The notes under the pieces are model-generated. The model ran no database searches. It saw only the letters and a program-made list of their open reading frames with translations, and was not told the origin of the DNA. 15,098 bases of DNA from the NCBI GenBank assembly GCA_021443285.1, contig JABUUG010000007.1, forward strand, positions 2,432-17,529, written 5' to 3'. This document shows, piece by piece, positions 1 through 15,098 of this stretch (within the stretch, counting starts at the first letter, position 1; each line of letters opens with the position of its first letter). Position numbers and translations under genes: made by a program. The DNA is from Bacteroidaceae bacterium. Lineage in GTDB: Bacteria > Bacteroidota > Bacteroidia > Bacteroidales > Bacteroidaceae.

Positions 1-69
1 AGCGGTTGCGGCGGACAGGGTTGCGCATAAGAGCAGTAACTGGATGCGGATGAAAGAAAGTTTTTTCAT
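1..69 (-). CDS. N-terminal signal peptide of an exported protein (cut by window edge)
   Basis: An ATG at 69 on the minus strand opens a frame that runs off the window after 23 codons. It reads MKKLSFIRIQLLLLCATLSA followed by ATA. This is a classic Sec signal peptide: a basic start (Lys2, Lys3, Arg8), a hydrophobic core rich in Leu, and an Ala-x-Ala-like end. The lone Cys15 is not in a convincing lipobox, so a soluble or outer-membrane protein is likelier than a lipoprotein. The gene lies 92 bp downstream of the ABC-F gene on the same strand. There is no Shine-Dalgarno sequence, as in the other left-side genes. The function cannot be told from this stub. Confidence 0.6.
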   Translation of the reverse strand, partial: MKKLSFIRIQLLLLCATLSAATA

Positions 70-161
70 GGTATTCAGAGTTTATGGGGATTTATTTTGA
101 TGTGGTGAAGGAGGGGGGGGGCAGCCGCTTTTGATGATGGTTTTAGGGGGAGTGGTAATTC
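70..161. other. Intergenic spacer with a run of nine G
   Basis: This 92-bp spacer lies between the ABC-F stop and the start of the exported-protein gene. It holds nine consecutive G on the plus strand (113-121), which is nine C in the transcribed direction and about 44 bp before the exported-protein start codon. It also holds GGGGAGTGGTAA at 147-158, which recurs exactly at 4665-4676 in the spacer upstream of the peptide transporter. No TAnnTTTG promoter box and no hairpin-plus-T terminator is visible. Confidence 0.5.
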
Positions 162-2105
162 CTAAGTTGCCATCCCCATTTCCTGAAGTTCGAGCCAGCG
201 CATCTCCTTCTCGTCCAACTGCGCTTCCACTTCAGGCAGGCGCTTGCTGTGCTTCACTATGCGGTCTGTGGAGATATTGCCGGCAGAGAGCTCTTCAACG
301 ATGGTCTTCTTCTCCGCTTCGAGTGCAGCGATGTCCTTCTCCAATTGCTCCAGCTCGCGCTGCTCCTTGTACGACAGCTTTCTCGGTTTGCCTCCACCTT
401 CTTTACCATCTTTACCTTCTCGACTTTCTTTACCTTCTTTGCTCTCTTTGACTTCCTTGCCTTTGCTACTTTCTGCCATAGGGCTGAGCTTCTGGTATTG
501 GCGGTATTGCGAGTAGTTGCCGGGGAAGTCCTGCACATTGCCGTTGCCGTGGAACACGAGCAGATGGTCAACGATTTTGTCGGTGAAGAAGCGGTCGTGG
601 CTGACTATAATGACGCAGCCGGGAAAGTCCTGGAGATATTCCTCCAACACTTCGAGAGTCTGAATGTCGAGGTCGTTGGTGGGCTCGTCAAGGATGAGGA
701 AGTTGGGGTCTTGCATCAGTACGGTGCAGAGGTAGAGCTTGCGCTGCTCGCCGCCGGAGAGCTTCTCGATATAGTCGTACTGCTGTTTGCGCGAGAAGAG
801 GAAACGCTCCAAGAGCTGTGCGGCGGTGAGGTGCTTACCGTTGCCGAGATTGATGTATTCTGCGATGTCTCGCACCACATCTATCACGCGCTGGTCGGGG
901 CGGAAAGCGAGTCCCTCCTGCGAGAAGTAGCCGAAGCGCACGGTCTGCCCGATGTCGAACTGTCCGCTGTCGGGTCGTTCCAGTCCGAGCAGCAGCTTTA
1001 TGAAGGTGGATTTACCCGCACCATTGTTGCCGACGATGCCCATCTTCTCGTAGCGGGAAAAGTTGTAGTAGAAGTCTTTGAGTATGACGAGCGGCTCGTC
1101 CTTCCCTTCGATGGGGAACGATTTGGAGACATACTGGCACTCGAATATCTTTGAGCCGATGTATGTGTTGCTGTTCTTCAGCCTCACCTGCCGCTCCTGT
1201 ATGCGCTGCTTTGCAATCTTCTCTAATTCGTAGAATGCCTCCTCGCGATAGCGTGCCTTGTGGCCTCTCGCCTGTGGCTGTCGGCGCATCCATTCGAGCT
1301 CCTTGCGGTAGAGGTTGTTTGCGCTGGCTATGGTGGCGTTCCTCACATCTATTCTTTGCTGCCGCTTCTCAAGGTAGTAGGAGAAATTGCCGCGATAGGT
1401 GTAGATGGTGTTGTCATCTATCTCGATGATTTGGTTGCACACATTGTCAAGGAAATAGCGGTCGTGCGTCACCATGAGCAGCGTCTTGTTGCCCCGCCGC
1501 AGGTATGCCTCAAGCCATTCAATCATCTCAAGGTCGAGGTGGTTGGTAGGCTCGTCAAGGATGAGGAGGTCAGGCTCGGTGATAAGCACGCTGGCGAGTG
1601 CCACACGCTTCTGCTGCCCGCCGCTGAGCTGGCTTATCTTCTGGTTGAGGTTGGGGATTTTCAGGGAGGTGAGAACCTGCTTTGCCTTGAGGATGAGGGC
1701 GTCTTCCTGCTCTGAAGCGTAATCCGATGCAATAGCGTCGGACTGCGCATAGGCGGCAGTGGATGGCTGCGCATCAAACAATGGTGATGCAGACCACGCA
1801 GCTGCAGATGGAGTGGGGGGGTACAATGCAGATTGTGGGAAGCAGGTTTGCAGTACGGTCTCCTCCGGGTTGAACGTCTGTTTCTGGTGGAGGAAGCCCA
1901 CCCTTATGCCGTTGCGGAAGATAACCTTACCGCTGTCCTGCGGCTCTTCGCCGGCGATGATTGACAGCAGTGTGGATTTGCCCACGCCGTTCTGCGCTAT
2001 AAGCCCTACCTTTTCGCCTTCGCCAATGGAGAAGGATATGTCGTTGATGATTATCCTCTCGCCGAAACGCTTGGAGAGGTTCTGTATGTCGAGAAGGGGT
2101 ATCAA
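162..2105 (-). CDS. ABC-F family ATPase, Uup-like
   Basis: A soluble twin-ATPase protein of 647 aa. ABC-F proteins act at the ribosome (translation factors or antibiotic protection), not in membrane transport, and no membrane segment is present. Domain 1 has Walker A GVGKST (about 40-45), signature LSGGQQ (160-165) and Walker B LLILDEPTNHLD (180-191). A basic, charged linker follows (about 262-310). Domain 2 has Walker A GAGKST (362-367), signature LSGGEQ (449-454) and Walker B LILDEPTNDLD (470-480). The end (about 577-645) is a Glu/Lys-rich coiled coil like the Uup C-terminal domain. Two oddities: an Ala/Ser/Pro-rich insert at about 90-131, and a tripeptide repeat (Glu-x-Lys) at 551-571. The start codon is TTG; the frame has a TAG seven codons upstream and no ATG between. 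Uup is the nearest match, but the exact subfamily is uncertain. Confidence 0.9.
   Translation of the reverse strand: MIPLLDIQNLSKRFGERIIINDISFSIGEGEKVGLIAQNGVGKSTLLSIIAGEEPQDSGKVIFRNGIRVGFLHQKQTFNPEETVLQTCFPQSALYPPTPSAAAWSASPLFDAQPSTAAYAQSDAIASDYASEQEDALILKAKQVLTSLKIPNLNQKISQLSGGQQKRVALASVLITEPDLLILDEPTNHLDLEMIEWLEAYLRRGNKTLLMVTHDRYFLDNVCNQIIEIDDNTIYTYRGNFSYYLEKRQQRIDVRNATIASANNLYRKELEWMRRQPQARGHKARYREEAFYELEKIAKQRIQERQVRLKNSNTYIGSKIFECQYVSKSFPIEGKDEPLVILKDFYYNFSRYEKMGIVGNNGAGKSTFIKLLLGLERPDSGQFDIGQTVRFGYFSQEGLAFRPDQRVIDVVRDIAEYINLGNGKHLTAAQLLERFLFSRKQQYDYIEKLSGGEQRKLYLCTVLMQDPNFLILDEPTNDLDIQTLEVLEEYLQDFPGCVIIVSHDRFFTDKIVDHLLVFHGNGNVQDFPGNYSQYRQYQKLSPMAESSKGKEVKESKEGKESREGKDGKEGGGKPRKLSYKEQRELEQLEKDIAALEAEKKTIVEELSAGNISTDRIVKHSKRLPEVEAQLDEKEMRWLELQEMGMAT
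393..455 (-). repeat. 9-bp tandem repeat encoding Glu-x-Lys triplets in the ABC-F linker
   Basis: Seven imperfect 9-bp units code for EVK, ESK, EGK, ESR, EGK, DGK and EGG (residues 551-571 of the ABC-F protein). They form a highly charged spacer between the second ATPase domain and the C-terminal coiled coil. The repeat keeps the reading frame, so gain or loss of units would only change linker length. Confidence 0.7.
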
Positions 2106-2131
2106 TTTTTCTGGTGGGTTCTAAAAATGGG

Positions 2132-2238
2132 AGCGAAGTGGAGTTATTGTGGAGTTAAAGGGACAATAGTCCTGAGCTTCAAATACATATGTCACTTTAA
2201 CTCCCCTCTAACTCCTCTTTAACTCCCCTTTAACTCCA
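2132..2238. repeat. Intergenic inverted-repeat element 1 with 11-bp tandem units
   Basis: The core is 54 bp (2151-2204). The left end GGAGTTAAAGGGACA (2151-2165) and right end TGTCACTTTAACTCC (2190-2204) pair at 14 of 15 positions around a 24-nt loop. Outside the core, the right side holds further copies of an 11-bp unit close to CCTTTAACTCC (to about 2237), and the left side has another GGAGTTA (2140-2146). It fills the spacer between engB and the ABC-F gene, ending just before the engB stop codon. It equals element 4 (4688-4741) in length and ends, but in the opposite orientation. There is no T-tract, so a simple terminator is unlikely. Confidence 0.75.
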
Positions 2239-2239
2239 A

Positions 2240-2839
2240 TTAATTATTGCCTTTCAGTATTTCTTCTATGTAGCCGAGCAGTTCGTCGCGCCCGGTCTTT
2301 TTCTCTGCGCTCGTGACGAATATCGGGGGCAGTTCCTCCCATGTTTCGAGCAGTGTCTTCTTGTATGCCTCGACATTGGTGTTCACCTTGCTGTTCGACA
2401 GCTTGTCTGCTTTTGTGAACACTATGGAGAAAGGCACACCGCTCTGCCCCAGCCACTCGATGAACTCAAGGTCAATCTTCTGCGGTTCGAGGCGTATGTC
2501 AACAAGCACAAACAGGTTCACGAGCTGTTCGCGCTGCAGTATGTAGCCGCTTATCATCTGCTCTAACTTCTGCAGCACACTCTTGGAGCGTTTTGCAAAG
2601 CCGTAGCCGGGGAGGTCGACGAGATACCACTGCTTGTTGATGATGAAATGGTTTATGAGCAGAGTCTTTCCCGGGGTGGCAGATGTCTTGGCAAGCCCCT
2701 TGCGGTTTGTCAGCATGTTTATCAAACTGGATTTGCCCACATTGGACCGTCCAATGAAGGCAAACTCCGGTTTGTTGTCCTTAGGGCAGAGGCTTTCGCG
2801 CGGTGAGCTAAGGGTAAATTCAGCGAATGAGATGTTCAA
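2240..2839 (-). CDS. engB: Ribosome-biogenesis GTP-binding protein EngB/YihA
   Basis: A 199-aa TRAFAC-class GTPase, the usual size for EngB/YihA, which assists assembly of the large ribosomal subunit and is often essential. Visible motifs: G1 GRSNVGKS (30-37), the TPGKT switch I region (55-59), G3 DLPGYG (75-80), G4 TKAD (142-145) and G5 SAE (177-179). The opening pattern (M-x-I-x-x-AEF) matches the family. The start codon is TTG (2837-2839 on the plus strand reads CAA); an in-frame TAA lies five codons upstream with no ATG between, so a non-ATG start is required. No Shine-Dalgarno sequence. The spacers on both sides carry the GGAGTTAAAG inverted repeats. Confidence 0.95.
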
Positions 2840-2871
2840 AATATTGGGAAGTTAAGTGTATGGTTATTTGG

Positions 2872-3019
2872 GGGAGTAAAAGGAGTTAAGGGAGTAAAAG
2901 GAGTTAAAGACATTACCTGCGAAGTTTGTGTCCATGCAGTTCTTCGATGAACGCGGCGTCAGAGCCAAGTCTCTGATAAAAAGTCATTTGTCTTTAACTC
3001 CCCTAACTACTTTAACTTC
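2872..3019. repeat. Intergenic inverted-repeat element 2 with an 18-bp tandem duplication
   Basis: GGAGTTAAAGACA (2900-2912) and TGTCTTTAACTCC (2989-3001) are a perfect 13-bp inverted pair separated by 76 nt. Next to the left arm is a perfect 18-bp tandem duplication, GGGAGTAAAAGGAGTTAA, at 2872-2889 and 2890-2907. Beyond the right arm are more degenerate units (to about 3019). Its inner flanks (ACATTACCT and TCATTTGTC) also occur in the reverse complement of element 4, so it looks like a longer, diverged member of the same family. It lies between the peptide transporter and engB. Confidence 0.7.
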
Positions 3020-3028
3020 TAAAATATA

Positions 3029-4600
3029 TCAGTTCGTCTTGCACACTTTCTCCAGCCATTTCACCATAGACAGCATGATAGCCATAGAGAGCAGGCAGAC
3101 GGCGAGGAACACTGTCCAGCACATCCACTGCGGCCATACATTGAGCATGACGGGACCAAGCCATATCAGTCCGTTGCCCACAGCCGTAGCACCGAGCCAC
3201 AGGCCCTGGCACAGTCCCTGCAGATGTTTCGGTGCAACCTTTGACACGAATGACAGTCCGAGAGGCGATATGAACAGCTCTGCAACGGTGAGGAAGAAGT
3301 AAACTGTGAGCAGCACCCATGCGCCAGCCTTCATCGCGTTCTGGTCTTCGGCGGGCATAGAGTTGAATGTCTCGCCAGAAGGATAGCCGTTTGCCAGTGC
3401 CACGAGCAGCAGCACGAGGTAGGCTATGCCGGCGATGAACATACCGATGGCTATCTTTCGCGGTGTTGAGAAGGTGAATCCGCGCTTTGCCAGCCATGCG
3501 AATATCGCCATGATTACCGGGGTGAGGAAGATTACGAAGAACGGGTTCACTGCCTGCCATACCTCTGGGGCAATAGACGAGGTATCAACGAAGTCGCGGG
3601 CATAGATTGAAAGCGACTGCGCATTCTGGTGGAATGAGAACCAGAAGAACACTGCTATGCCGAGCACTGCGAAGAGAGCCATCATGCGCTGGCGTATCTC
3701 CGCAGCCATAGTCCTGCGCTCCTCTTCTGTGTAGTCAACTGCAGCGGCGGCAGCCTTTTTTGCAGGGGTCGGGAATGTCTTCTTGTTCACGAGGAAGATG
3801 ACGAGCGATATGCCCATAGCCACCACCGATGCCCAGAATGAGTAGTGTACGCCGGTGTTGAACACCTCAAGATACTGGTTGCAGAAGTCGATGGTAGGCT
3901 CTGCCACTGCGCCGTTGCTCACCTCTGCACACCACTCCTTGATGTTCTGCATCTCCTCTGCGCTCATGCCCGCAGCGTCGTTGATGAACTTATGGCAGAG
4001 TGCCGGCAGTTTTGCGTGGTATGTGAAGCCATTCTGTGCGAGCCACCATCCGCGAAGGTATGGCGCGATGAATGGGGCAACGAGTGCGCCGATGTTTATG
4101 AACACATAGAATATCTGGAAGCCGCTGTCGCGCAGACCTTTCACACGGTCGAGTTCGTCCTTGCCCTTCTTTGCAGCCTGCTCTTCGAGGTTGTCATACA
4201 TCTGTCCGACGATAGCTTGGAGGTTGCCCTTGAAGAAGCCGTTGCCGAGAGAGATGATGAACAGCGCCGCACAGGTGAACGGCAGCAGCCACGACTTGTT
4301 GGTGTCTGTGGCAGTGATAGGGATGGTGAGCAACACATAACCGAGCGACATCAGCACGAGTCCGGTGATGATGGTGCCCTTGTAGTTGCTCGTGCGGTCG
4401 GCAACGATACCGCCCACAAGGCTCAGGATGTAAATCAGTGTGAGGAAGGCGGAGGCAATCATGCCGCTGGCACCATCGCTGAGGCCGAATTTGGAACATA
4501 GGAACAGAATGAGCACAGCGTTCATGATGTAGTAGCCGAAACGCTCGCCCATATTACTGAGGGCTGCCGACAGCAGACCCTTTGGGTGATTTGAAAACAT
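3029..4600 (-). CDS. POT/PTR2-family di-/tripeptide:proton symporter
   Basis: A 523-aa polytopic inner-membrane protein with about 12-14 hydrophobic segments. Near the N-terminus it carries GERFGYY (about 18-24), the core of the ExxERFxYY motif needed for proton coupling in POT transporters. The first Glu of the motif is Asn here. Family hallmarks also include the charged ADR turn after the second helix and the ELFISPLGLSFVSKVAP segment near the C-terminus. A soluble, Cys-containing loop of about 60 residues (roughly 185-245) lies between helices in the middle of the protein. Substrates are presumably small peptides imported with protons; this is inferred from the family. The start is ATG at 4600, preceded by an A/T-rich leader without Shine-Dalgarno, typical of Bacteroidota. 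Confidence 0.9.
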   Translation of the reverse strand: MFSNHPKGLLSAALSNMGERFGYYIMNAVLILFLCSKFGLSDGASGMIASAFLTLIYILSLVGGIVADRTSNYKGTIITGLVLMSLGYVLLTIPITATDTNKSWLLPFTCAALFIISLGNGFFKGNLQAIVGQMYDNLEEQAAKKGKDELDRVKGLRDSGFQIFYVFINIGALVAPFIAPYLRGWWLAQNGFTYHAKLPALCHKFINDAAGMSAEEMQNIKEWCAEVSNGAVAEPTIDFCNQYLEVFNTGVHYSFWASVVAMGISLVIFLVNKKTFPTPAKKAAAAAVDYTEEERRTMAAEIRQRMMALFAVLGIAVFFWFSFHQNAQSLSIYARDFVDTSSIAPEVWQAVNPFFVIFLTPVIMAIFAWLAKRGFTFSTPRKIAIGMFIAGIAYLVLLLVALANGYPSGETFNSMPAEDQNAMKAGAWVLLTVYFFLTVAELFISPLGLSFVSKVAPKHLQGLCQGLWLGATAVGNGLIWLGPVMLNVWPQWMCWTVFLAVCLLSMAIMLSMVKWLEKVCKTN

Positions 4601-4660
4601 GGTAGTTATTATTATTGATTAGTTGTTTATTGTTAGGTGGGTTTTTCTTTTGGGGTGTAG

Positions 4661-4780
4661 TGAAGGGGAGTGGTAACTGAGGGGAGTGGAGTTAAAGTGA
4701 CAAATGATTAATGCGCATGAAGGTAATGTCCCTTTAACTCCTCTTTAACTTCCCTTTAACTTCACATTAACTCCACTCTA
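4661..4780. repeat. Intergenic inverted-repeat element 4 (54-bp core, inverted relative to element 1)
   Basis: Core 4688-4741: GGAGTTAAAGTGACA (4688-4702) and TGTCCCTTTAACTCC (4727-4741) pair at 14 of 15 positions around a 24-nt loop. Its reverse complement has exactly the same ends and the same 54-bp length as element 1 (2151-2204), but the loops agree at only about 8 of 24 positions. Units near CTTTAACTCC continue on the right to about 4776, and GGGGAGTGGTAA (4665-4676, also at 147-158) lies on the left. The repeat occupies most of the 185-bp spacer between rel and the peptide transporter gene. Confidence 0.75.
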
Positions 4781-4785
4781 TATCC

Positions 4786-6948
4786 TCACAGTCTGTTCAC
4801 CTGCCTTACCCCCTTCACCTGTTGCAGCTTCTTTATAAGTATGTTCAGGCGGTGCTGGTCTTCCACGGAGATGGTTATTGTGCCGGAGAAGAGTCCGTCG
4901 TTGGAGTCGATGTTTATGGAGCGGATGAGGATATGTTCCTCCTTTGATATTACATTCGATATGTTCGACATTATGCCGATGTCGTCGTTGCCCACTATGT
5001 GCAGCGTTATGTCATACTGCCCAGCGCCCTTTCCACTCCACACAGCCTTCACTATGCGGTAGGCGTAGCGGCTGTGCAGGTCTTTCGCGTTGGGGCAGTC
5101 GCATCGGTGAATCTTTATGCCGTCGTTGATGGTTACGAAACCGAACACCTTGTCGCCGTATATCGGGTTGCAGCAGCGGGCGAGGGAGTAGTCCACCCCT
5201 TTCAGGTTTCTGCCTATGACGAGCACATCCTGCCCCTGAGCGGCAAACTGCGTCTTCATGCGCGTGTTTATCGCGTTGCTGTTCAGCACGAAGTTCTCCG
5301 CGCTTGTCGCCGGCTGCTGACTGTCGGCTGTTGCTCGTTGCGGATTGTCCTCCGCCTCTTTCAGTTCGATGTATTTGTCGATGACAACAGCCATGTCTAT
5401 CGTGGAGTTTGCCACATCGCGGTAGAAATCGGCGGTCTCCTTGTAGCCGAATTTCTTCAGCAGATGCGACATGGTGCTTTCCGACATCTCCACCTTGCGG
5501 TTCTTCAGTCTGCGCTCCAGCATCTCCTTCGCGTACAGCCCGTCCTTCACCTGCGTCTCCTTCAGCGCCATGCGTATCTTGCTCTTGGCGCGTCCGGTAA
5601 CCACCATGTTCAGCCAGTCCTGCTTAGGCTTCTGCTGACTGGAGGTGAGAATCTCCACATTGTCGCCGCTCTGAAGCTCATACCTGAAGGGCACTGCCTT
5701 GCCGTTAATCTTTGCGCCCGTGCAGGTGTTGCCCACCTTTGTGTGTACGGCGTAGGCGAAGTCAAGTACGGTGGCGCCTTTGGGAAACTTCTTCAGCTCG
5801 CCTTTCGGCGTGAACACAAACACCTCCTGATCGTAGGCGGCGGTGGAGAAGGTGCTGTCTATGTCGATGTTGTCCGATGTCTCCAGTGCGCGGCGCACCT
5901 CGCCCAGCCATGTGTCTATGCCGTTCTCGCTCTGCACGCCCTTGTAGCGCCAGTGTGCGGCGAGGCCGTTCTCCGCGATGGCGTCCATGCGCTCCGTGCG
6001 TATCTGCACCTCCACCCATTTCTGCTGCGGGCCGAGCACGGTGATGTGCAGGCACTCGTAGCCGTTGGACTTCGGCACGCTCAGCCAGTCGCGCATTCGC
6101 TTCGGGTTAGGCTGGTAGCGGTTGGTGATAAGGGCATACACCTGCCAGCACTGCACCTTCTCCTGTTCCAGCGGCGAGTCGAGGATAATGCGTATGGCGA
6201 ACAGGTCATAGACACCCTCAAACGGGCAGTTCTGCTTCTTCATCTTCTGCCAGATGGAGTGGATTGACTTCGTGCGGCCCTTGATGTGGAACTTCAGTCC
6301 CGCCTCCGTGAGCATCTGCTCTATAGGCTCTATGAACTCCTGCATGTATTTGTCGCGCGCAGCCTTCGTCGCGTTCAGCTTCTCCTTGATGTGGTAGTAG
6401 GCGTCGTGCTCGATGTATTTCAGCGAGAGGTCTTCTATCTCGCTCTTCAGCTTGTATAGTCCGAGCTTGTGGGCGAGTGGCGCATAGAGCAGGGCGGCAT
6501 CCTGAATGGTGCTTACGGGCGGCTCTTTCAATTCGTTTATGTGGCGCAGGAAGGCTACTGTCTCCGCAATGACTATCAGCAGCACCCTCACATCCTCGCA
6601 CAGCGACATCAGCAGGTTGCGGAAGTTGTCATCGGTAATGACACGCGCACGCTCGTACAGTTTCCTTATCTTTATGTAGCTTATGAGAATCTTGTAGGAT
6701 GTCTCGCCGAAGTCGTCCTTCACTTTGGCAATCTGTGGGTCGTCGATGTCTGTGAAGCATGGGGTCAGCAGTATGGCGACAATAGCGTTTCTGCCCAGCC
6801 CCAGTTCGTCGGCGGCAATGTCGCACACCCTCGCGCAACTGTCTATCGGATTGCGTCCGAGCCAGTCGTTCTGTATCTTACCCGCATCCTGAGCCTCTTT
6901 TGTGTAGCTGGCTATCAGTGCGGCGTCTTCTGCCGATAATTGGTGCAT
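4786..6948 (-). CDS. relA: RelA/SpoT-family (p)ppGpp synthetase with degenerate hydrolase domain
   Basis: A long Rel protein (720 aa from 6948) that makes the stringent-response alarmone from ATP and GTP/GDP. The N-terminal region (about 1-180) has the fold position of the HD hydrolase but not its residues: the usual HD(V/I)xEDT segment reads LLTPCFTDIDD (60-70), and the LADRLHN segment reads VIAETVAFLRH (126-136). The synthetase domain looks intact: GRTKSIHSIW (224-233), YDLFAIRI (247-254), VPKSNGYECLH (291-301), VEVQIRT (312-318). A TGS domain (about 374-435), a Cys-rich ARCCNP segment (590-595) and a C-terminal ACT domain (about 645-720) follow. This suggests a synthesis-only, RelA-type enzyme. 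An ATG at 7008 is in frame, but the likely transcript starts near 6981, so 6948 is preferred. Confidence 0.9.
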   Translation of the reverse strand: MHQLSAEDAALIASYTKEAQDAGKIQNDWLGRNPIDSCARVCDIAADELGLGRNAIVAILLTPCFTDIDDPQIAKVKDDFGETSYKILISYIKIRKLYERARVITDDNFRNLLMSLCEDVRVLLIVIAETVAFLRHINELKEPPVSTIQDAALLYAPLAHKLGLYKLKSEIEDLSLKYIEHDAYYHIKEKLNATKAARDKYMQEFIEPIEQMLTEAGLKFHIKGRTKSIHSIWQKMKKQNCPFEGVYDLFAIRIILDSPLEQEKVQCWQVYALITNRYQPNPKRMRDWLSVPKSNGYECLHITVLGPQQKWVEVQIRTERMDAIAENGLAAHWRYKGVQSENGIDTWLGEVRRALETSDNIDIDSTFSTAAYDQEVFVFTPKGELKKFPKGATVLDFAYAVHTKVGNTCTGAKINGKAVPFRYELQSGDNVEILTSSQQKPKQDWLNMVVTGRAKSKIRMALKETQVKDGLYAKEMLERRLKNRKVEMSESTMSHLLKKFGYKETADFYRDVANSTIDMAVVIDKYIELKEAEDNPQRATADSQQPATSAENFVLNSNAINTRMKTQFAAQGQDVLVIGRNLKGVDYSLARCCNPIYGDKVFGFVTINDGIKIHRCDCPNAKDLHSRYAYRIVKAVWSGKGAGQYDITLHIVGNDDIGIMSNISNVISKEEHILIRSINIDSNDGLFSGTITISVEDQHRLNILIKKLQQVKGVRQVNRL

Positions 6949-6987
6949 TGAGGGTGAGTTTACTCTGTCGTAGCCACATTTATGCGG

Positions 6988-6995
6988 CAAAAGTA
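6988..6995 (-). promoter_or_regulatory. Bacteroidota-type promoter -7 box for rel
   Basis: On the minus strand the sequence reads TACTTTTG, a full match to the Bacteroidota -7 consensus TAnnTTTG. No clear -33 TTG box at the usual distance was found. Transcription would start near 6981, inside the first possible rel codons, which supports the ATG at 6948 as the real start. Confidence 0.6.
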
Positions 6996-7058
6996 GGAAA
7001 AAAGGCAAATTGTTGCGATAATTTCAACGAAATATTTCACTCTTCTTTGAAGATAGCT

Positions 7059-7066
7059 TACATTTG
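7059..7066 (+). promoter_or_regulatory. Bacteroidota-type promoter -7 box for the plus-strand gene at 7130
   Basis: TACATTTG matches TAnnTTTG, with only a weak TTTC in the -33 position (7034-7037). Transcription would start near 7071, leaving a leader of about 60 nt before the ATG at 7130. The leader is A/T-rich without Shine-Dalgarno. It forms a divergent pair with the rel promoter and shows that Bacteroidota DNA continues at least to the ATG at 7130. Confidence 0.6.
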
Positions 7067-7129
7067 CATCGTGTATGACATGGAAAACATCTTATTTATT
7101 CTCAAATATTAACAATAATCATTTAACTT

Positions 7130-7174
7130 ATGCTATCACAAAAAGACCTTGAACAGATTGCTCAGAAGGGCATC
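7130..7174 (+). CDS. 5' stub of a Bacteroidota gene, possibly DUF4301 family
   Basis: The first 15 codons ([15 protein letters not shown]) follow a Bacteroidota promoter and leader. From memory of the family, Bacteroidota DUF4301 proteins of unknown function begin with a very similar string ending in KGIS, so this is probably the start of such a gene. The remainder is missing: at or just after Lys-Gly-Ile the frame becomes leucyl-tRNA synthetase. The assignment rests on a short peptide and on recall, not on a search. Confidence 0.4.
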
Positions 7175-8389
7175 GGAACAAGAAAAGTAAATTACAAGCT
7201 TCGCGATTGGGTATTCTCAAGACAGAGATACTGGGGAGAGCCTATTCCTATCATCCACTGCCCGAACTGCGGTAATGTACCTGTTCCTGAAGATCAGCTT
7301 CCGCTTCTGCTTCCTGATGTGGAAAGCTATGTTCCTACCGGAACAGGAGAATCACCGCTGGCGGCTATCGATGAGTGGGTTAATACCACATGTCCGTGCT
7401 GCGGCGCACCGTCAAAACGTGAAACAAATACCATGCCTCAGTGGGCAGGATCATCATGGTATTTCCTTCGTTATGTGGATCCGAAGAATCAGGAAGCACT
7501 GGTAGACCGTGAAAAAGCTGATAAGTACCTTCCGGTAGACATGTATATCGGCGGTGTTGAGCATGCTGTACTTCATCTGCTTTATTCAAGATTCTACACC
7601 AAATTCCTGAATGACATAGGCGTACTTGATTTTAAGGAACCCTTCAGAAAGCTGTTCAACCAGGGAATGGTATGCGGACGTGACAGGGTCACAGGTGCAG
7701 CCACAAAAATGAGTAAATCTCTTGGAAATATCGTATCTCCTGATGATATGGTAAGAGATTACGGCTGTGATGCTCTGAGACTTTATGAACTTTTCATAGG
7801 ACCGCCTGAACTGGATTCCATATGGGATGACCGCGGCATAGACGGTGTATACAGATTCCTCTGCAGACTTTACACTCTGGTTATGAGCAATGCTGATAAG
7901 GATATTCAGGCAACTGATGAAATGATCAAGGTAAGGAACAAGATGGTCTGCGACATCACAAAGCGTCTTGAAACCTTCAGCCTTAATACTGTAGTCAGCG
8001 GATTCATGGAGTACACCAACAAACTTTCAGATATCGCAAAGAAGGATGGCGGTATAGATAAGGAAACGGTTGAGACTCTTATAAGACTCCTGGCTCCCTT
8101 TACACCTCATATTTCAGAAGAAATGTGGCAGGCATACGGTCACGATACTACAGTATTTGACAGCAATCTGGGTTGGCCTGCATATGATGAGGCCCTTACA
8201 AAAGACGATGAGATAGAAATCGGTGTACAGGTTAACGGCAAGCTTAAATGTACTGTAAAGCTTCCTGCGGATGTTTCAAATGCTGATGCCATTAAAGCGG
8301 CAAAAGAGGCACTTGGCGACAGACTTACAGGCAATATTGTAAAAGAAATCTACGTTCCCGGACGTATTATCAATATCGTAGCAAAATAA
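7130..8389 (+). CDS. leuS: Leucyl-tRNA synthetase, C-terminal half fused to a foreign start
   Basis: From about 7175 (residue 16) onward this is LeuRS, which charges tRNA-Leu with leucine. Seen in order: KVNYKLRDW and [10 protein letters not shown] of the catalytic fold; a Cys4 zinc module (CPNCG at about 44-48 and CPCCG at about 88-92); [11 protein letters not shown]; the ATP-binding KMSKSLGN motif (about 193-200); the helical anticodon-binding domain; and the C-terminal domain ending in [11 protein letters not shown]. The full enzyme is about 800 aa. The first half, including the HIGH motif and the CP1 editing domain, is missing, so this fragment cannot be active. The start at 7130 belongs to the Bacteroidota side and is not a real leuS start. 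The stop codon overlaps the next ATG by one base (TAATG). Confidence 0.9.
7166..7178. other. Junction between Bacteroidota-like and Clostridia-like DNA
   Basis: The reading frame passes from a Bacteroidota-type protein start into the interior of LeuRS here. Both families plausibly encode Lys-Gly-Ile at this point, so a short shared stretch (around AAGGGCATC, 7166-7174) could have joined the two sequences. Base composition, codon choice, gene strand and translation-start style all change across this point. Confidence 0.65.
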
Positions 8390-9648
8390 TGTTTTCGACA
8401 GTTATTCAGATAGCACTTATAGTAATACTGATATTTCTTTCGGCTGTATTTTCATCTTCCGAAACTGCTCTTACAACCATAAGTCCTCACAGGCTGAGGA
8501 CTATGGTTGAGGAGAATATGAAACATGCGCTGACTCTTGAAAAGGTCCTTGGTAAAAGGGAAAAAATGCTCAGTGTTATTCTTATCTGCAATAATATCGT
8601 GAATATCGCTGCATCTTCCCTTGTCACGGTTTTTGTTCAGAATACATTCGGAAACTGGGCAATAAGCATCGGAACAGGGGTACTTACCGTTGTGATCCTT
8701 ATTTTCGGTGAGATCACACCTAAAACCCTGGCAACTTATAATGCTGAAAAGCTTGCACTTTTGCTGGCACCGGTCATAAATGCTCTGATGATAGTATTCA
8801 CACCGATAGCTGCAGCGATTAATTTTCTTTCTTCCGGTGTTCTGAAACTGTTTTCCATCGATAAAAACGCAAAGGCTGAATCCTATACTGAAAATGAAAT
8901 ACGCTCCATAGTTGCAGTTTCATCCGAAGAAGGTGTCATAGAGGACAAGGAAAAAGAAATAATAAATAATATTTTTGATTTCAATGATACCGTTGCCAGA
9001 GGAGTAATGGTGCCAAGAGTGAACATAACTGCTGTAAACAGAACGGCTGACTTTGAAACAATTAAAAGCATTTTTACAGACAATATGTACACCCGTTTCC
9101 CTGTATATGACGATGAAAACAATCATTTTATAGGAATGCTTAATCTTAAGGATGTTATTTTCCTGAGCAGGGAAGATGAAGGCAGTTTTTCCCTGGAAAA
9201 GTATATGCGCCCTTTACCTTATACATTTGAACAGAAACATCTTTCAGAACTGTTTGTTGAAATGAAAAAGGAACATGTGAGCATGATGGCAGTCATGGAT
9301 GAGTACGGACAGACGGTGGGAATAGTTACCATGGAGGACCTTCTGGAAGAAATAGTCGGGGAAATCCGTGATGAGTATGATGACGAAGACGACGTTGTAA
9401 TGAACACTTCGGAAAATGTTTATAAGGTTCATGGTTCTGTCAGCATTGCAGACATCAACCGGGAGCTGGGAACTGAACTTTCCTCTGAAAATTACGATTC
9501 CGTCGGGGGACTTATCATGGAAAAACTGGACCGTCTTCCTGAAGAAGGTGAAACGGTGCAGGTTGATGACTGCATGATAACAGCAGAACGAGTTGATGGT
9601 GCCAAGATTGAAGAAGTAAGCATCAGGATTCTTAACAAAAATGAATGA
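8389..9648 (+). CDS. CNNM/CorC-HlyC family membrane protein (DUF21-CBS-CBS-CorC domain)
   Basis: A 419-aa inner-membrane protein. The N-terminal DUF21 (CNNM transmembrane) domain spans about 1-160, with conserved SSSETAL (22-28) and GEITPKTLA (107-115) motifs. Then come paired CBS domains (about 200-330, opening with VMVPRVNI and including MDEYGQTVGIVTMEDLLEE), an acidic linker (328-336), and a CorC/HlyC C-terminal domain (about 340-419). Relatives are linked to magnesium or cobalt export; the old 'hemolysin' name is misleading. The start overlaps the leuS stop by one base and has no clear Shine-Dalgarno, suggesting translational coupling. The end overlaps the P-type ATPase gene by 8 bp, hinting at a shared role in cation balance (inference). 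Confidence 0.92.
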   Translation: MFSTVIQIALIVILIFLSAVFSSSETALTTISPHRLRTMVEENMKHALTLEKVLGKREKMLSVILICNNIVNIAASSLVTVFVQNTFGNWAISIGTGVLTVVILIFGEITPKTLATYNAEKLALLLAPVINALMIVFTPIAAAINFLSSGVLKLFSIDKNAKAESYTENEIRSIVAVSSEEGVIEDKEKEIINNIFDFNDTVARGVMVPRVNITAVNRTADFETIKSIFTDNMYTRFPVYDDENNHFIGMLNLKDVIFLSREDEGSFSLEKYMRPLPYTFEQKHLSELFVEMKKEHVSMMAVMDEYGQTVGIVTMEDLLEEIVGEIRDEYDDEDDVVMNTSENVYKVHGSVSIADINRELGTELSSENYDSVGGLIMEKLDRLPEEGETVQVDDCMITAERVDGAKIEEVSIRILNKNE

Positions 9649-12043
9649 ATTTGATCAGAAAAACATATATTCGGGTTTAACCTCAGAACAGGTCACGGAA
9701 AGAATTTCCCGTGGCCTTGTTAATAATACCGGAAATGTCAGGACCAGGTCATACAGGCAGATTATTATGGGTAATATTTTCACCCTGTTCAATCTTATCA
9801 ATACAATCCTGCTTGTGTGCATAATCATTTCCGGTTCTTTGAAGAATGCACTTTTTTATCTCGTGGTATTATGGAATTTCCTTATAGGTACCATTCAGGA
9901 AATACGCGCAAAAAAGACCATTGATAAACTGTCTCTTATTTCGGCTCCTAAGGCACATGTGATAAGAGACGGCACGGATATTGAAATAAATGTAAATGAT
10001 ATTGTCCTCGGAGATATCATGGTACTTAACACCGGAAATCAGATATGTGCTGATGCGGTTGTCATTGATGGCAGCTGTCAGGTTAATGAAAGTCTGGTTA
10101 CCGGTGAGAGTGATGCAATATATAAGTCTTCCGGCGATAATATTCTTTCAGGCTCCTTTCTGGTATCAGGCAGGGTTTATGCGGAGGTTGAACATGTAGG
10201 AGAGGATAACTACGCAAATAAGATTACCAGCGGTGCGAAACAATATAAGAAGCCTGATTCAGTGATAATGAAATCAGTAAGTTCCATTATCAGGGCGCTT
10301 GTGATATGCATTATTCCTCTTTCAGCGTTGTTTATATGGAATAATTTTTTCAGGCTGGATCTGGGATTTTCGCCGGCAATGGTGAAAACAGTTGCAGCTG
10401 TTTCGTCAATGATTCCGGGAGGACTGGTTCTTCTTGTCAGCATAGTGCTTTCTGTTTCCGTTATCAGACTGTCCGCTCATAAAACCATGGTTCAGGATCT
10501 TTACTGTGTTGAAAATCTTGCAAGGGTTGATACATTACTGCTTGACAAAACAGGTACCATAACCGAAGGCATTATGAAAGCAGAGGAAATCCTTCATATA
10601 AACGAAAATCTGCCTGCAGGAATTAAAGATCTGAATATTGATGCTGTTATAAGAACATTTGCACTTAAAAGCACAGATTCTAATCCTACCATAGAAGCTG
10701 TAAGAGATTATTTTGCTTCTTATGATGCGGAATCAGTGTATTTTGATGACTGTTCATCCCATTTCATACCTTTCTCATCAGAAAGAAAATTCAGCATGCT
10801 GTGTGTGGATGGCACAGGATCATTTCTCATGGGAGCTCCTGAATTCATACTGGATGACATGAGCAGGGTTTCTGACTGTATAGCTTCTTATGCGGAAAAA
10901 ATGAAAAGGGTAGTTGTTTTTGCATGGTCACCTGAAATACCTGATATCCGTGCTGAAGGTGATTTTAAGAAACCTGATAATATATTTGCTCTCAGTCTGA
11001 TAGTGATAGGAGACAGGATAAGAGAAAATGCGCCTGCAACATTAAAGTTTTTCAGGGATGAAGATGTGGATATAAAGATAATATCAGGGGATTCACCCAT
11101 TACTGTATCCGGGATTGCAGCACAGGCAGGTCTTCTGAATGCTGATAAATGGGTAGACGCATCCATACTTAAGGATGAGGCAGACATTGAGGCTGCTGTA
11201 GATAAATATACCGTTTTTGGCAGAGTGACTCCTCATCAGAAATGTGATATTGTCAAAGCTCTTAAGAAAAAGGGGCATACTGTTGCCATGACTGGTGACG
11301 GTGCTAATGATGTGCTGGCCCTAAGGGAATCGGACTGTTCTATTGCAATGCAGAGCGGTACTGATGCCGCAAGAAATGCTGCAAATCTTGTCCTGCTGAA
11401 TTCTGATTTTTCATCCCTTCCCCTTGTGGTTGCCGAAGGAAGAAAATCTATCAATAACCTCCAGAGATCAGCAGCACTTTATATTACCAAGACAGTTTTT
11501 TCTATGGTGCTTACGGCGTTTTTTATATTTGCATCATCCGTGGTATATCCATTCGAAAGTATACAGATGACACTTATAGGTGCCATAGGAATAGGAATAC
11601 CATCTTTTTTCCTTGCTCTTGAGCCTAATAATAACAGGATCAAAAAGGGATTTCTGGCAAATGTTGCAAAAACTGCGGTTCCAACGGGTATTATGGAAGG
11701 CGGGGCTCTGATCGTCCTGACATATATGCTTAAAAATATCGGTGCGGACAGTGCTCAGACGGCTGCGGCAGCTACCTATATGATGCTTATTCTGGGAATA
11801 GCTGTTGTTTTCAATATATGCGGCAAGGTTAATCTGTTTAAAATCGGGCTTATTGTTCTTCTTGCTGCAGCAGCTGCAGGGGCTTGCCTGGTGCTGCCGA
11901 AGGTTTTTTCATTAGTGCCGCTTAATCCTCAGATATGGGGGATAATACTGATAATAAGTGCGGTATTCTTTGCAGTGCATTTTGTTGTTTTCAGGATTAT
12001 CATGCCTGAAATGCGTGGTAAATCTGAGAAAAATCATAATTAA
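9641..12043 (+). CDS. P-type cation-transporting ATPase, CtpE-like
   Basis: An 800-aa ion pump that uses ATP to move cations across the inner membrane. Visible motifs: actuator TGES (154-157), phosphorylation motif DKTGTITEG with Asp302, ISGDSPITVSGIA (about 481-493), and the hinge TGDGAND (551-557). Two hydrophobic pairs precede the P-domain (about 42-82 and 215-275), and a hydrophobic C-terminal block (about 605-790) contains the remaining helices. The overall layout and the segment after helix M4 (VENLARVDTLLLDKTGT) resemble the CtpE-type calcium ATPases. The M4 motif, PEGL in many Ca/Mg pumps, reads PGGL here (259-262). The start overlaps the preceding gene by 8 bp; AGGA at 9625-9628 is a possible distant ribosome site. 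The ion carried is not certain. Confidence 0.9.
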   Translation: MNEFDQKNIYSGLTSEQVTERISRGLVNNTGNVRTRSYRQIIMGNIFTLFNLINTILLVCIIISGSLKNALFYLVVLWNFLIGTIQEIRAKKTIDKLSLISAPKAHVIRDGTDIEINVNDIVLGDIMVLNTGNQICADAVVIDGSCQVNESLVTGESDAIYKSSGDNILSGSFLVSGRVYAEVEHVGEDNYANKITSGAKQYKKPDSVIMKSVSSIIRALVICIIPLSALFIWNNFFRLDLGFSPAMVKTVAAVSSMIPGGLVLLVSIVLSVSVIRLSAHKTMVQDLYCVENLARVDTLLLDKTGTITEGIMKAEEILHINENLPAGIKDLNIDAVIRTFALKSTDSNPTIEAVRDYFASYDAESVYFDDCSSHFIPFSSERKFSMLCVDGTGSFLMGAPEFILDDMSRVSDCIASYAEKMKRVVVFAWSPEIPDIRAEGDFKKPDNIFALSLIVIGDRIRENAPATLKFFRDEDVDIKIISGDSPITVSGIAAQAGLLNADKWVDASILKDEADIEAAVDKYTVFGRVTPHQKCDIVKALKKKGHTVAMTGDGANDVLALRESDCSIAMQSGTDAARNAANLVLLNSDFSSLPLVVAEGRKSINNLQRSAALYITKTVFSMVLTAFFIFASSVVYPFESIQMTLIGAIGIGIPSFFLALEPNNNRIKKGFLANVAKTAVPTGIMEGGALIVLTYMLKNIGADSAQTAAAATYMMLILGIAVVFNICGKVNLFKIGLIVLLAAAAAGACLVLPKVFSLVPLNPQIWGIILIISAVFFAVHFVVFRIIMPEMRGKSEKNHN

Positions 12044-12051
12044 CAATTAGG

Positions 12052-12302
12052 CTGAGCTTCCGTGCATACCATATATTTTTATGTTCAGTATGACTTCGCC
12101 TGTAATTCATGGGATACTGCTGATATTTATTGCAGGCCGGGGCATTCGCAGTAAATCCCTGACGGATTTACTGCTCAGTACCCCTGAGGTCATACGGACT
12201 TGTGGTCCTATGACCTCACCTGCATAAATATCTGCAGTATCCCTGAATTAAGACGGCTCGTCATATTCACATTAAAATATATGGTGTGCACGGGAAGCAG
12301 CA
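12052..12302. repeat. Large compound palindrome, predicted three-way junction
   Basis: Starting 8 nt after the ATPase stop codon, a long imperfect inverted repeat pairs 12060-12136 with 12219-12293 (about 77 and 75 nt, most positions complementary, a few bulges). It opens with CCGTGCAtACCATATATTTT against its near-complement, and CTG plus GCTTC flanks (12052-12060) extend it outward to 12302. The enclosed 82 nt split into two further hairpins. One is GGGG (12139-12142) with CCCC (12181-12184), enclosing GCAGTAAATCC/GGATTTACTGC (12148-12158/12164-12174). The other is TGAGGTCATA/TATGACCTCA (12185-12194/12209-12218), with GGAC/GTCC above it. Almost no bases at the branch point stay unpaired. It encodes no credible protein and has no terminal T-tract. 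It could be a MITE-like mobile repeat, a structured RNA, or an mRNA-end stabiliser. Confidence 0.85.
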
Positions 12303-12490
12303 GGATTATTAAAAGCAAACTGGCCATTTTTCCTGATTATGAAACCATAAAAATTCGCAGGAAGCCATTTTTCTTGATTTATTGAAAAACTGGAAGAGAT
12401 TTCTCGAAGCTATGGTAGACTTGCGAGTATGTGGCAGCATGACCGGGTATGGGAAGTTTGAACGGATTATAATATACGGAGTTTATAAAG
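12303..12490. other. Remainder of spacer upstream of the aldo/keto reductase, with a direct repeat
   Basis: No gene is visible here. GCCATTTTTCCTGATT (12323-12338) is repeated with one change at 12364-12379, and AAACTGG occurs beside each part (12317-12323 and 12387-12393). A small hairpin, CTCGAAG (12403-12409) with CTTGCGAG (12420-12427), follows. The ribosome site GGAG (12478-12481) lies 9 nt before the reductase ATG. A TATAAT at 12468-12473 lacks a -35 partner. Confidence 0.5.
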
Positions 12491-13669
12491 ATGCAGTACA
12501 GATTTGATAAATACGGAAATAAGATTTCCACTCTCGGTTTCGGCTGTATGAGATTTACAACTAATGCCGGCAGGATTGATATTAATAAAGCGAAAAGTGA
12601 GATAAAGGCTGCTTTTGACGGCGGTGTAAATTATTATGATACTGCATATATCTATCCCGGAAGTGAAGCTGCCGTTGGCAGGATTTTTGAAGAACTGGGA
12701 ATCAGAGACAGTATTTATATTGCCACAAAGCTTCCCCATTATCTTATCAGGAAGCCGGAGGATTTTGACAGGATATTTAACGAGGAACTTGAAAGACTTC
12801 GTACTGACCACATTGATTATTATCTGATACATATGCTTAATGATCCGGGGGCGTGGAACCGTGTCTGTGAAATGGGTATTAAGGACTGGATAAAAGGGAA
12901 AAAAGAAGAAGGAAAGATCAGACAGGTTGGTTTTTCATACCATGGCAATTCAGATATGTTCTGCAGTCTTATTGATGCATACGACTGGGAGTTCTGTCAG
13001 ATACAGTACAATTACATGGATGAACATTCCCAGGCAGGCATTACCGGCCTGAAATATGCTGCCGAAAAGGGACTTCCCATAATTATCATGGAACCTTTAA
13101 GGGGAGGGAGACTGGCCAATAAGCTTCCTTATGAAGCTGTTGAACTTATGAACAGTTATCCTGTTAAAAGAAACCCTGCCGCCTGGGGCTTCAGATGGCT
13201 GTGGAACCAGCCTGAAATAACCTGTGTTCTTTCGGGAATGAATTCTCTGGAAATGGTTGAGGATAATATTAAAACTGCTTCGGAAATAAATCCCGGAGAT
13301 ATCACAGAGGATGAATTTGCTGTTTACGAAAAGGTAGTTGATATTATCAATAAAAATACAAAGGTACCCTGCACAGGATGCAGATATTGCATGCCATGTC
13401 CCAGGGGAGTTAATATTCCGGGTATTTTTTCTTCTTACAATAACATCTGTTCCCAGGGTATGTTTGTCGGGGTTAAGGAATATGTCATGTGCAATGTTAT
13501 AAGGAACAGGTATACCGGTATCTCTAATTGTATAGGCTGCGGTAAATGTGAGCAGCATTGCCCCCAGAATATTGAGATAAGAAAAAAACTCAGAGAAGCT
13601 TCAAAGGTATTTGAAAACCTGCCTCTGAAGCTGGTATATAAGGTTATTCCAAAGATTGTAAAGTACTGA
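12491..13669 (+). CDS. Aldo/keto reductase with C-terminal double [4Fe-4S] domain
   Basis: A 392-aa soluble oxidoreductase. The N-terminal part (about 1-270) is an aldo/keto reductase barrel with the catalytic set Asp50 and Tyr55 (in YYDTAYIYPGSE), Lys80 (ATKLP) and His114 (IHML). The C-terminal part carries two ferredoxin-type clusters: Cys294, 297, 300 and 303 followed by Pro (CTGCRYCMPCP), and Cys347, 350, 353 and 357 (CIGCGKCEQHCP). This fused form is common in anaerobic Clostridia; the clusters presumably pass electrons to or from a ferredoxin or flavin partner, but the substrate is unknown. The start ATG has GGAG 9 nt upstream. It is separated from the ATPase gene by the large palindrome and probably begins an operon with thiN and rluF. 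Confidence 0.92.
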   Translation: MQYRFDKYGNKISTLGFGCMRFTTNAGRIDINKAKSEIKAAFDGGVNYYDTAYIYPGSEAAVGRIFEELGIRDSIYIATKLPHYLIRKPEDFDRIFNEELERLRTDHIDYYLIHMLNDPGAWNRVCEMGIKDWIKGKKEEGKIRQVGFSYHGNSDMFCSLIDAYDWEFCQIQYNYMDEHSQAGITGLKYAAEKGLPIIIMEPLRGGRLANKLPYEAVELMNSYPVKRNPAAWGFRWLWNQPEITCVLSGMNSLEMVEDNIKTASEINPGDITEDEFAVYEKVVDIINKNTKVPCTGCRYCMPCPRGVNIPGIFSSYNNICSQGMFVGVKEYVMCNVIRNRYTGISNCIGCGKCEQHCPQNIEIRKKLREASKVFENLPLKLVYKVIPKIVKY

Positions 13670-13686
13670 TATTTATGGTGGAAAAA

Positions 13687-14307
13687 ATGAAAAGATGTGT
13701 TGTTGTCAGTGGTGCTGATATACAAAAATATGATGATATCAGAAAATATCTTAGAAATGATGATTACTTTATATTCTGCGACAGCGGACTGAAGCATCTG
13801 GACAGGCTGAATGTATCACCGGATCTGATAATCGGTGACTTTGATTCCTATGAAAGACCGGAGACTTCAGTAGAAACTATTGTACTGCCCCGGGAAAAGG
13901 ATGATACTGATTCTGTTTTCGGAGTAAAGGAAGGAATCAGAAGAGGATTTTCGGACTTTGTTCTTATAGGAATGGTAGGCCAGCGTTTTGACCATACCAT
14001 GGGAAACGTATCCATATTGCTGAAGCTTCATTCTATGGGATTTAATGCATTGCTGGCTGATGACTATTCAGAGATGCAGGTTGTTTCGGATAAGACTGTT
14101 TATGTAGAAGACAGATATCCGTATTTTTCATTATTAAATATATCGGGAACTGCAAAAGGTATTTACATACGAAATGCGAAATACTGTCTTGAAAATGCAG
14201 AAATAGGCTGTGAGTATCAATATGGGATAAGTAATGAAGTCATACCCGGAAAGACAGCAGAAATAACTGTTAACGAAGGCAGACTCCTTCTTGTAAAGGT
14301 CAGATAA
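13687..14307 (+). CDS. thiN: Thiamine pyrophosphokinase
   Basis: Transfers pyrophosphate from ATP to thiamine, making the cofactor thiamine diphosphate in the cytoplasm. Family motifs, numbered from the start at 13687: CDSGLKHLDRLNVSPDLIIG then DFDS (about 31-54), PREKDDTDSVFGV (about 68-80), and GQRFDHTMGN (about 97-106), which hold the ATP- and Mg-binding Asp residues. The C-terminal part is the beta-rich thiamine-binding domain. The product is 206 aa, close to the usual 200-220. An upstream in-frame ATG at 13675 would add four residues, but it lacks a ribosome site, whereas GGTGGA (13677-13682) sits just before the ATG at 13687. The gene follows the reductase by 17 bp and ends 3 bp before the next start. 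Confidence 0.92.
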   Translation: MKRCVVVSGADIQKYDDIRKYLRNDDYFIFCDSGLKHLDRLNVSPDLIIGDFDSYERPETSVETIVLPREKDDTDSVFGVKEGIRRGFSDFVLIGMVGQRFDHTMGNVSILLKLHSMGFNALLADDYSEMQVVSDKTVYVEDRYPYFSLLNISGTAKGIYIRNAKYCLENAEIGCEYQYGISNEVIPGKTAEITVNEGRLLLVKVR

Positions 14308-14310
14308 GAT

Positions 14311-15093
14311 ATGAATAAACTGTCAAAAAAAATCATAACAGAAAACTCTTCAGATAAAACAGAAGAGATGAGGCTGAATAAGTTTCTGGCGGATGCAGGC
14401 ATATGCTCCAGACGGGAGGCCGACAGGATGATTGAATCCGGAAAGGTTAAAGTTGATGGTATAACGGCTGTAATGGGACAGAGGGTGATGCCGGGACAGA
14501 ATGTAACTGTTGACGGAAAAGAAGTTTCGAAGGATGACAGGCTTGTTATTATAGCATTTAACAAACCGGCAGGTATCGAGTGTACTACCTCAGACAGAAC
14601 AGCAGGTAATATTATTGATTATATTAAATATCCTGTTCGTATATTTCCTGTAGGGAGACTGGATAGGAATTCCACCGGACTTATTCTTCTGACAAATGCG
14701 GGAGAACTGTCAGACCGAATACTGAGAAGCAGCAACCATCATGAGAAGGAATATGAAGTTACTGTCAACAGACCGCTGACACGTGAGTTTATTAAAAACA
14801 TGCAGGATGGGGTGGAAATCGAACAGGAAGACGGCAGATACAGAGTAATGACCAGGCCCTGCCGGCTGGAGGCTACGGGAAAATGTTCCTTTAATATCGT
14901 TCTTACACAGGGGCTTAACAGACAGATAAGGCGTATGTGCAGTGAACTGGGGTATAAAGTCATTTCCCTTAAAAGGATAAGGATCATAAACATAAATCTG
15001 GGGAATCTGTCAGAAGGCCATTACAGAAATCTGACGGAAGCGGAGGTCAGGAAACTCATGAAGGAATTAAACAAGGCTGAGGGTGAGTCTTGA
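14311..15093 (+). CDS. rluF: RluF-like 23S rRNA pseudouridine synthase
   Basis: A 260-aa RNA-modifying enzyme of the RsuA/RluB/E/F family. An N-terminal S4 RNA-binding domain (about 20-80, MRLNKFLADAGICSRREADR) is followed by the synthase domain: NKPAGIECTT (84-93), the catalytic GRLDRNSTGL (115-124, nucleophile Asp118), KEYEVTV, and QGLNRQIRRMCSELGY near the end. The pattern from S4 through NRQIRRMC fits RluF, which modifies U2604 of 23S rRNA in Escherichia coli; the target here is inferred. A 19-residue polar extension precedes the S4 domain. A start at the internal ATG (14368) is possible, but AAAGG at 14295-14299 favours 14311. It is 3 bp after thiN, so very likely co-transcribed. Confidence 0.9.
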   Translation: MNKLSKKIITENSSDKTEEMRLNKFLADAGICSRREADRMIESGKVKVDGITAVMGQRVMPGQNVTVDGKEVSKDDRLVIIAFNKPAGIECTTSDRTAGNIIDYIKYPVRIFPVGRLDRNSTGLILLTNAGELSDRILRSSNHHEKEYEVTVNRPLTREFIKNMQDGVEIEQEDGRYRVMTRPCRLEATGKCSFNIVLTQGLNRQIRRMCSELGYKVISLKRIRIININLGNLSEGHYRNLTEAEVRKLMKELNKAEGES

Positions 15094-15098
15094 GGACA

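Follow-up and report, generated by a model that had tools for sequence, protein, structure and literature searches.

The terminal hairpins of parvoviruses are T- or Y-shaped, with a long stem that carries two small apical hairpins. Among bacterial mobile repeats, MITEs of the IS630 type show a TA target duplication, and enzymes of the REP-type HUH class read mismatches inside hairpins. The REPs themselves are given as 20–40 bp long (PMC3733652), and some bacterial MITE families are reported at gene 3′ ends (PMC10969869). Template switching during replication has been proposed as a source of paired multi-base changes that keep the stems of RNA genes intact (PMC8794818).

Here, we describe a palindromic element in a window of 15,098 nucleotides, the whole stretch of DNA that was analysed. 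Positions 12056–12298 are one of 26 full-length copies that the genome has of a noncoding palindromic repeat, which is predicted to form a Y-tipped hairpin and is likely, with a probability of about 70%, a non-autonomous mobile DNA element. Among the papers listed in searches of open-access literature, none describes this repeat in its title or the start of its abstract. The features of the locus are:

12056–12298, plus strand: whole palindromic element, 243 bp, limits set by arm-to-arm extension
12092–12264, plus strand: conserved core, matched by covariance model R1 over its full length (1–175, E 2.8e-37), this copy being one of the 23 from which R1 was built
12060–12084, plus strand: left outer arm, copy-specific sequence, pairs with 12269–12293 (92% complementary)
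12269–12293, plus strand: right outer arm, 92% complementary to 12060–12084
12148–12174, plus strand: apical hairpin 1, 11-bp stem and 5-nt loop by folding, bordered by the conserved ATTCG/CTCAG internal loop
12185–12218, plus strand: apical hairpin 2, 15 bp with one bulge by folding, with a GGACTTGTGGTCC-type tip that is well conserved in the copy alignment
9641–12043, plus strand: P-type-ATPase-like open reading frame, 800 amino acids, a neighbour outside the element with its stop 12 nt before the palindrome

The original prediction had placed a palindrome with a three-way junction here, beginning 8 nt past an ATPase stop codon, and both points hold. Region 12040–12315 has a predicted RNA folding energy of −144.3 kcal/mol, whereas shuffled versions average −67.7 (sd 4.7; z = −16.2, with none of 200 shuffles equal), and its DNA fold gives z = −16.1. 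The open reading frame, which we take to be a P-type ATPase from its DKTGT motif, ends at 12043, with position 12052 8 nt further on; the extension of the arms sets the left end of the palindrome at 12056. Compared with its own reverse complement, the element matches at 71% across 12056–12298. The stems of the two apical hairpins had been given as 11 and 14 bp, which is right for the first and one base pair and a bulge short for the second. The branch had also been described as almost free of unpaired bases, which is contradicted by internal loops read by eye in and around the junction, TGC/TC at the outer end of the core and ATTCG/CTCAG below hairpin 1, both largely conserved between copies.

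Directly after the element, at 12323–12379, the direct repeat GCCATTTTTCCTGATT is present in two copies, 41 bp apart. The G+C content of the window is 45–60% in positions 1–7000 and 38–44% in positions 7001–15098, and an open reading frame of 419 amino acids, presumably LeuRS-like, starts abruptly at 7130; it is possible that the contig is a chimera that joins DNA from two organisms. Since the nearest named protein to the aldo/keto reductase of the window is from Parasporobacterium (69% identical), the host family of the element is, judged from sequence, probably Lachnospiraceae.

The genome containing the window (G000; 2.94 Mb in 493 contigs, 82% complete) gave at least 40 matches in a DNA search, including partial ones and opposite-strand matches to the same copy. 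Folds were computed for the window copy and for 27 other places, and by eye the architecture is alike wherever the copy is complete. Model R1 finds 32 matches in this genome: 26 full-length copies, one of which is truncated at a contig end, one copy with an internal deletion, four partial ones and one opposite-strand match to a copy already in the list. The palindromes are 232–285 bp long in the 25 own-genome copies measured, the window copy included. Mean column identity in the core alignment is 76%; outside the core, the arm sequence is copy-specific with a loose common motif only, and both arms of any copy match each other. Like MITEs, the repeat is multicopy, short, noncoding and intergenic, simple ORF calls placing the copies between open reading frames, and its terminal inverted repeats are in effect the entire element. 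Two of the copies (L008 and L012) have a second partial copy or a repeated arm in tandem behind them.

A covariance-model search of relatives, as the original prediction had suggested, was productive. With strict filters, which make the genome counts lower bounds, R1 matched 4 of 41 relatives (the own genome and three congeners, and none of the 16 genomes from other families within this sample) and 19 of 299 genomes across the family, own genome included, in a sample of nearly one genome per genus; a second model, R2, comprising 42 copies, matched 4 of 392 genomes of the order, again including the own genome and all from the element's family. Deeper candidate scoring in six family genomes gave 12, 25, 26, 4, 14 and 82 matches, the last in genome G281. 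In this genome, at least 12 minus-strand cores are located within 800 bp of a contig start (for example in C103, C29, C34 and C36), as if the element breaks assemblies. Complete copies from other genomes fold alike by eye. Overall, the elements measure about 230–380 bp and have two apical hairpins, with arms that reach about 27–106 bp past the core.

Evidence for mobility comes from two genomes, G620 and G281. The end ATTYCGGTTTGT is common to the single units (about 307 bp) and the composites (about 0.7–1.2 kb) of G620, and ATTYCGGTTTGTNGRGG-like terminal inverted repeats are found at both ends of several elements. Two elements in G620 (C3 283917–284521 and C4 69870–70886) combine the usual terminal repeat with another interior at one or both ends. 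The G620 element at L230 matches at least 12 further places, at least 10 of them at 95–98% identity. It is located between convergent genes, which in the congener G664 lie end to end, the element being absent; G662 carries a short hairpin there whose ends are similar, and five other congeners have other or short spacers. For two elements on one G281 contig, the orthologous places in G327 lack a counterpart, with 1.7 kb of other DNA at the first site and 82 nt at the second. Model R2 gave no match in nine unoccupied stretches from the L230 and G281/G327 sites and found the occupied control loci. Insertion polymorphism with empty sites, as in MITEs, is seen in G664 and between G281 and G327. Mobility is therefore supported by the 95–98% alike G620 copies with shared ends, the element-free orthologous site and the two G281 insertions absent in a congener.

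At a third site, G281 and G327 both carry an element. The flanking gene is 87% identical, and the element aligns over 89 nt and 31 nt only; both G327 palindromes match the model, and the left core resembles, by eye, the G281 copy L075. This site may reflect fast turnover of the arms, or another copy may have replaced the earlier one. The locus of the window copy was compared with 10 same-genus genomes by reading on past the closest ATPase homologue. No element was found there by eye or with R1, in stretches of at most 420 nt each, one of them shortened by a contig end, and of uncertain orthology. Because the neighbours of the ATPase homologues differ, they do not provide a clean empty site.

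No consistent target-site duplication was seen by eye in the flanks of G281 and G620 elements; TA or AATT occurs at some ends only, in part because ends abut stop codons. A TA target duplication, attractive in G620, was rejected, as it fails at several ends. Many copies with target-site duplications had been named in advance as the sign of a mobile element, and the copies are there, without a consistent duplication. Among the possibilities the original prediction offered, a MITE-type element fits best, given 26 full-length copies, further copies beyond the genus, the terminal inverted repeats seen in G620 and the element-free orthologous site; a consistent duplication and a transposase are the parts of that description that were not found.

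The search for the mobilising enzyme centred on Y1_Tnp, and with it on the idea that a REP-type HUH (Y1/RAYT) transposase mobilises the repeat as a transposon family, an overgrown REP/BIME in which paired palindromes enclose REP hairpins. Paired arrangements do occur: in G281, G143, G259 and other genomes, many cores form pairs of a plus and a minus copy 0.2–0.9 kb apart, and in ten such pairs from G281 the outer ends are, by eye, of two kinds, one of each in most pairs. Palindromes beside long Y1 genes in G281 (L362 999–1095) and G327 (L363 2147–2242) match repeats in the spacers of composites or in element loci, among them L192 in G327. In addition, the mismatches in the element hairpin are of the sort such enzymes recognise. 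Against this, Y1 does not track the element. It is present in 17 of 23 carriers and in 12 of 17 non-carriers, and the single-contig genomes G260 and G310 have the element and lack Y1; in 30 Y1 loci, taken from a longer list, neither R1 nor R2 found the repeat, which thus does not flank the Y1/RAYT gene there. The seven other genomes compared for such palindromes yielded weak matches in two and none in five. Y1_Tnp was accordingly rejected as a general mobiliser, and a REP-type origin of the whole family appears unlikely; for the genus of G281 and G327, the matching palindromes suggest that a REP-type link may exist.

In 16 pairs checked, the sole open reading frame of at least 120 amino acids wholly within the spacer is one of 303 amino acids in G064, in a 1.5 kb spacer. 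It occupies 1397–2308 of L128, between a plus and a minus element, and has 15 matches in G064. At E 0.001 it matches neither Pfam nor NCBIfam, and at E 1e-10 it has no relative in G000; it may resemble Rpn nucleases. No autonomous relative with the same ends was found in 1,229,768 bases of G620 (genome about 2.5 Mb); the 13 elements there are 289–1187 bp long and the longest stop-to-stop frame has 118 amino acids.

With respect to genes, the repeat has no fixed orientation. In the 19 of 26 own-genome copies with both neighbours called, the neighbours are oriented ++ in eight, −− in seven, +− in three and −+ in one, with ORF calls that are crude and two neighbour analyses that disagree at some copies. 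This bears on the proposal that the repeat is a bidirectional transcription terminator, spreading mainly through its usefulness between convergent genes. Consistent with a terminator, 12 of the 29 sides that face a stop codon in the own genome are within 31 nt of it, compared with 3 of the 14 that face a start, and several G281 pairs lie between convergent genes. However, of the 19 own copies, 15 are flanked by co-directional genes and only three by convergent ones, and the median gaps, 87 nt for the 29 sides facing a stop and 45.5 nt for the 14 facing a start, speak against a preference for stops. Palindromes of about 230–380 bp with a conserved three-way apex are also far larger than a terminator, and we regard this explanation as quite unlikely. 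In G620, the left end is, by eye, 0–2 nt from a stop codon in five of seven copies.

That pairing is kept while the sequence drifts had been predicted, and is strongly borne out. Double changes occur in 38 of 51 pairs in the own-genome copies. In 42 copies from outside G000, 93.0% of 2000 cells are paired, with both sides changed in 859, and the covariation score is 0.925, compared with 0.091–0.131 for slid versions, which pair at 36–47%; the alignment was fitted to the structure, which builds in part of this excess, and alignment-independent folds agree by eye. Two of the five measures in the same test (pairs with a double change, and further pair types) are not above shuffles, because nearly all columns vary.

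Covariation of this strength, conserved unpaired residues and the position close behind a stop codon at the window and several other copies are what would be expected of a structured RNA, a 3′ UTR element or sRNA with its fold selected on one strand; a structured RNA within the ATPase mRNA had indeed been put forward. The G-U pairs do not point that way. They make up 3.6% on the plus and 4.3% on the minus strand in 25 own copies (p = 0.21), and 2.6% and 3.6%, respectively, in 28 other copies (p = 0.05), a difference opposite in direction to that of an RNA on the modelled strand. As controls, 10 tRNAs from G620 have 10.0% G-U in the sense and 3.2% in the antisense direction, and SRP RNA, T-box and SAM riboswitch from the same genome, pooled, 15.5% and 9.2%. 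The modelled strand thus lacks the G-U excess of tRNA, SRP and T-box, and the pairing is not of the one-strand kind with tolerated G-U that marks functional RNAs; the SAM riboswitch on its own also has no strand difference. Double changes of the transversion type are as common as transitions, orientation to genes is mixed, and the closest ATPase loci have no model match. All this makes a structured RNA very improbable, including one in the ATPase mRNA.

An Rfam scan of the window gave nothing above gathering, and at eight loci of copies two sub-gathering matches only (E 0.25 and 0.37), so there is no curated RNA family match. A riboswitch or other known RNA was rejected for the window and these eight loci, as the original prediction had said of known riboswitches.

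The rarity of G-U pairs and their equal share on both strands, the transversions as frequent as transitions and the mixed gene orientation make it look as if pairing is kept at the DNA level. The DNA cruciform site that had also been proposed is compatible with this, the cruciform itself being known here only as a predicted fold. Among G281 copies that are 80–97% alike, 430 pairs show compensated double changes, 249 are broken, by a change on one side or by changes on both that do not match, and 55 have gone to G-U, in 5009 pair comparisons that are not independent. Compensated changes in the 85–97% subset comprise 127 transitions and 158 transversions, and one-sided wobble states in G281 copies are about equal, with 42 G-T and 58 A-C. 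In the two G281 comparisons with the highest identity (93%), one-sided changes outnumber double ones, and ten young G620 units contain 45 one-sided, 5 double and 18 unpaired changes, the paired ones mostly in the outer arms. Since the young G620 copies and these two comparisons show mostly one-sided changes, arm matching does not seem to be instantaneous: changes would arise on one side and be matched later.

Whether strong selection for the folded form alone, without copying from arm to arm, could keep the arms paired has to be weighed here. Mismatches are conserved among aligned copies, which suggests that some selection on the folded core exists, and in young copies the one-sided changes come first, as selection would have it. 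In the G281 copies, however, the 430 compensated pairs exceed the 304 broken and G-U pairs taken together, and the near-equal G-T and A-C states speak against selection on its own, so we find it somewhat improbable as the sole force.

The best reading is likely a new family of noncoding, MITE/REP-like mobile hairpins. In such a family, a transposase supplied in trans would act on the folded hairpin or on its ends, with the conserved mismatched core as the putative recognition part. The arms could stay matched through replication template switching or conversion, by which one arm is copied onto the other, and selection for the fold may be an alternative or added force. Copies are often close behind stop codons, above all in G620, where insertion is presumably least harmful; the hairpin would thereby be placed at the 3′ end of a transcript and could affect termination or mRNA decay as a side effect. 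A bolder extension, which we regard as rather doubtful, is a mobile class that moves as a folded single-stranded DNA hairpin and is read via its mismatched three-way-junction tip. Self-templating would renew its long arms at such a pace that an orthologous insertion in a sister species keeps the position and the fold and almost none of the arm sequence.

The repeat offers a large natural set of abundant paired changes without an RNA-type strand bias, and a test case of how template switching or conversion can produce covariation that resembles that of RNA. It is also an example of how numerous a probable mobile repeat can become, with 82 matches in one genome, and in draft assemblies its copies appear to fall at the ends of contigs.

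When compared with described systems, the repeat works like a MITE or REP, being noncoding, palindromic and mobile or recently mobile. With bacterial MITEs such as Correia/NEMIS, RUP and ERIC, it shares a short, noncoding, multicopy and mostly intergenic nature and palindromic structure or terminal inverted repeats. Its hairpin is much longer than theirs, however, with a three-way-junction apex that has conserved mismatches and with arm sequences that vary between copies, and it has no consistent target-site duplication and no partner transposase was found; because these last two are not established, it is placed in no named MITE family. Like REP/BIME sequences with their RAYT, the copies are interspersed palindromes, partly in pairs of opposite orientation, and two genomes have a long Y1 gene whose neighbouring palindromes match the spacer repeats. 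It is set apart from REPs by its size, about 230–380 bp with two apical hairpins instead of a single hairpin of 20–40 bp, and by not flanking a Y1 gene. The long stem with two small apical hairpins is analogous in shape to the terminal hairpins of parvoviruses, although here it appears to belong to a bacterial chromosomal repeat to which no replication protein is linked. Finally, paired multi-base changes with intact stems are common to this repeat and to the hairpins for which template switching has been proposed (PMC8794818); there the case is in RNA genes, while here it would be a repeat with arms of about 27–106 bp past the core.
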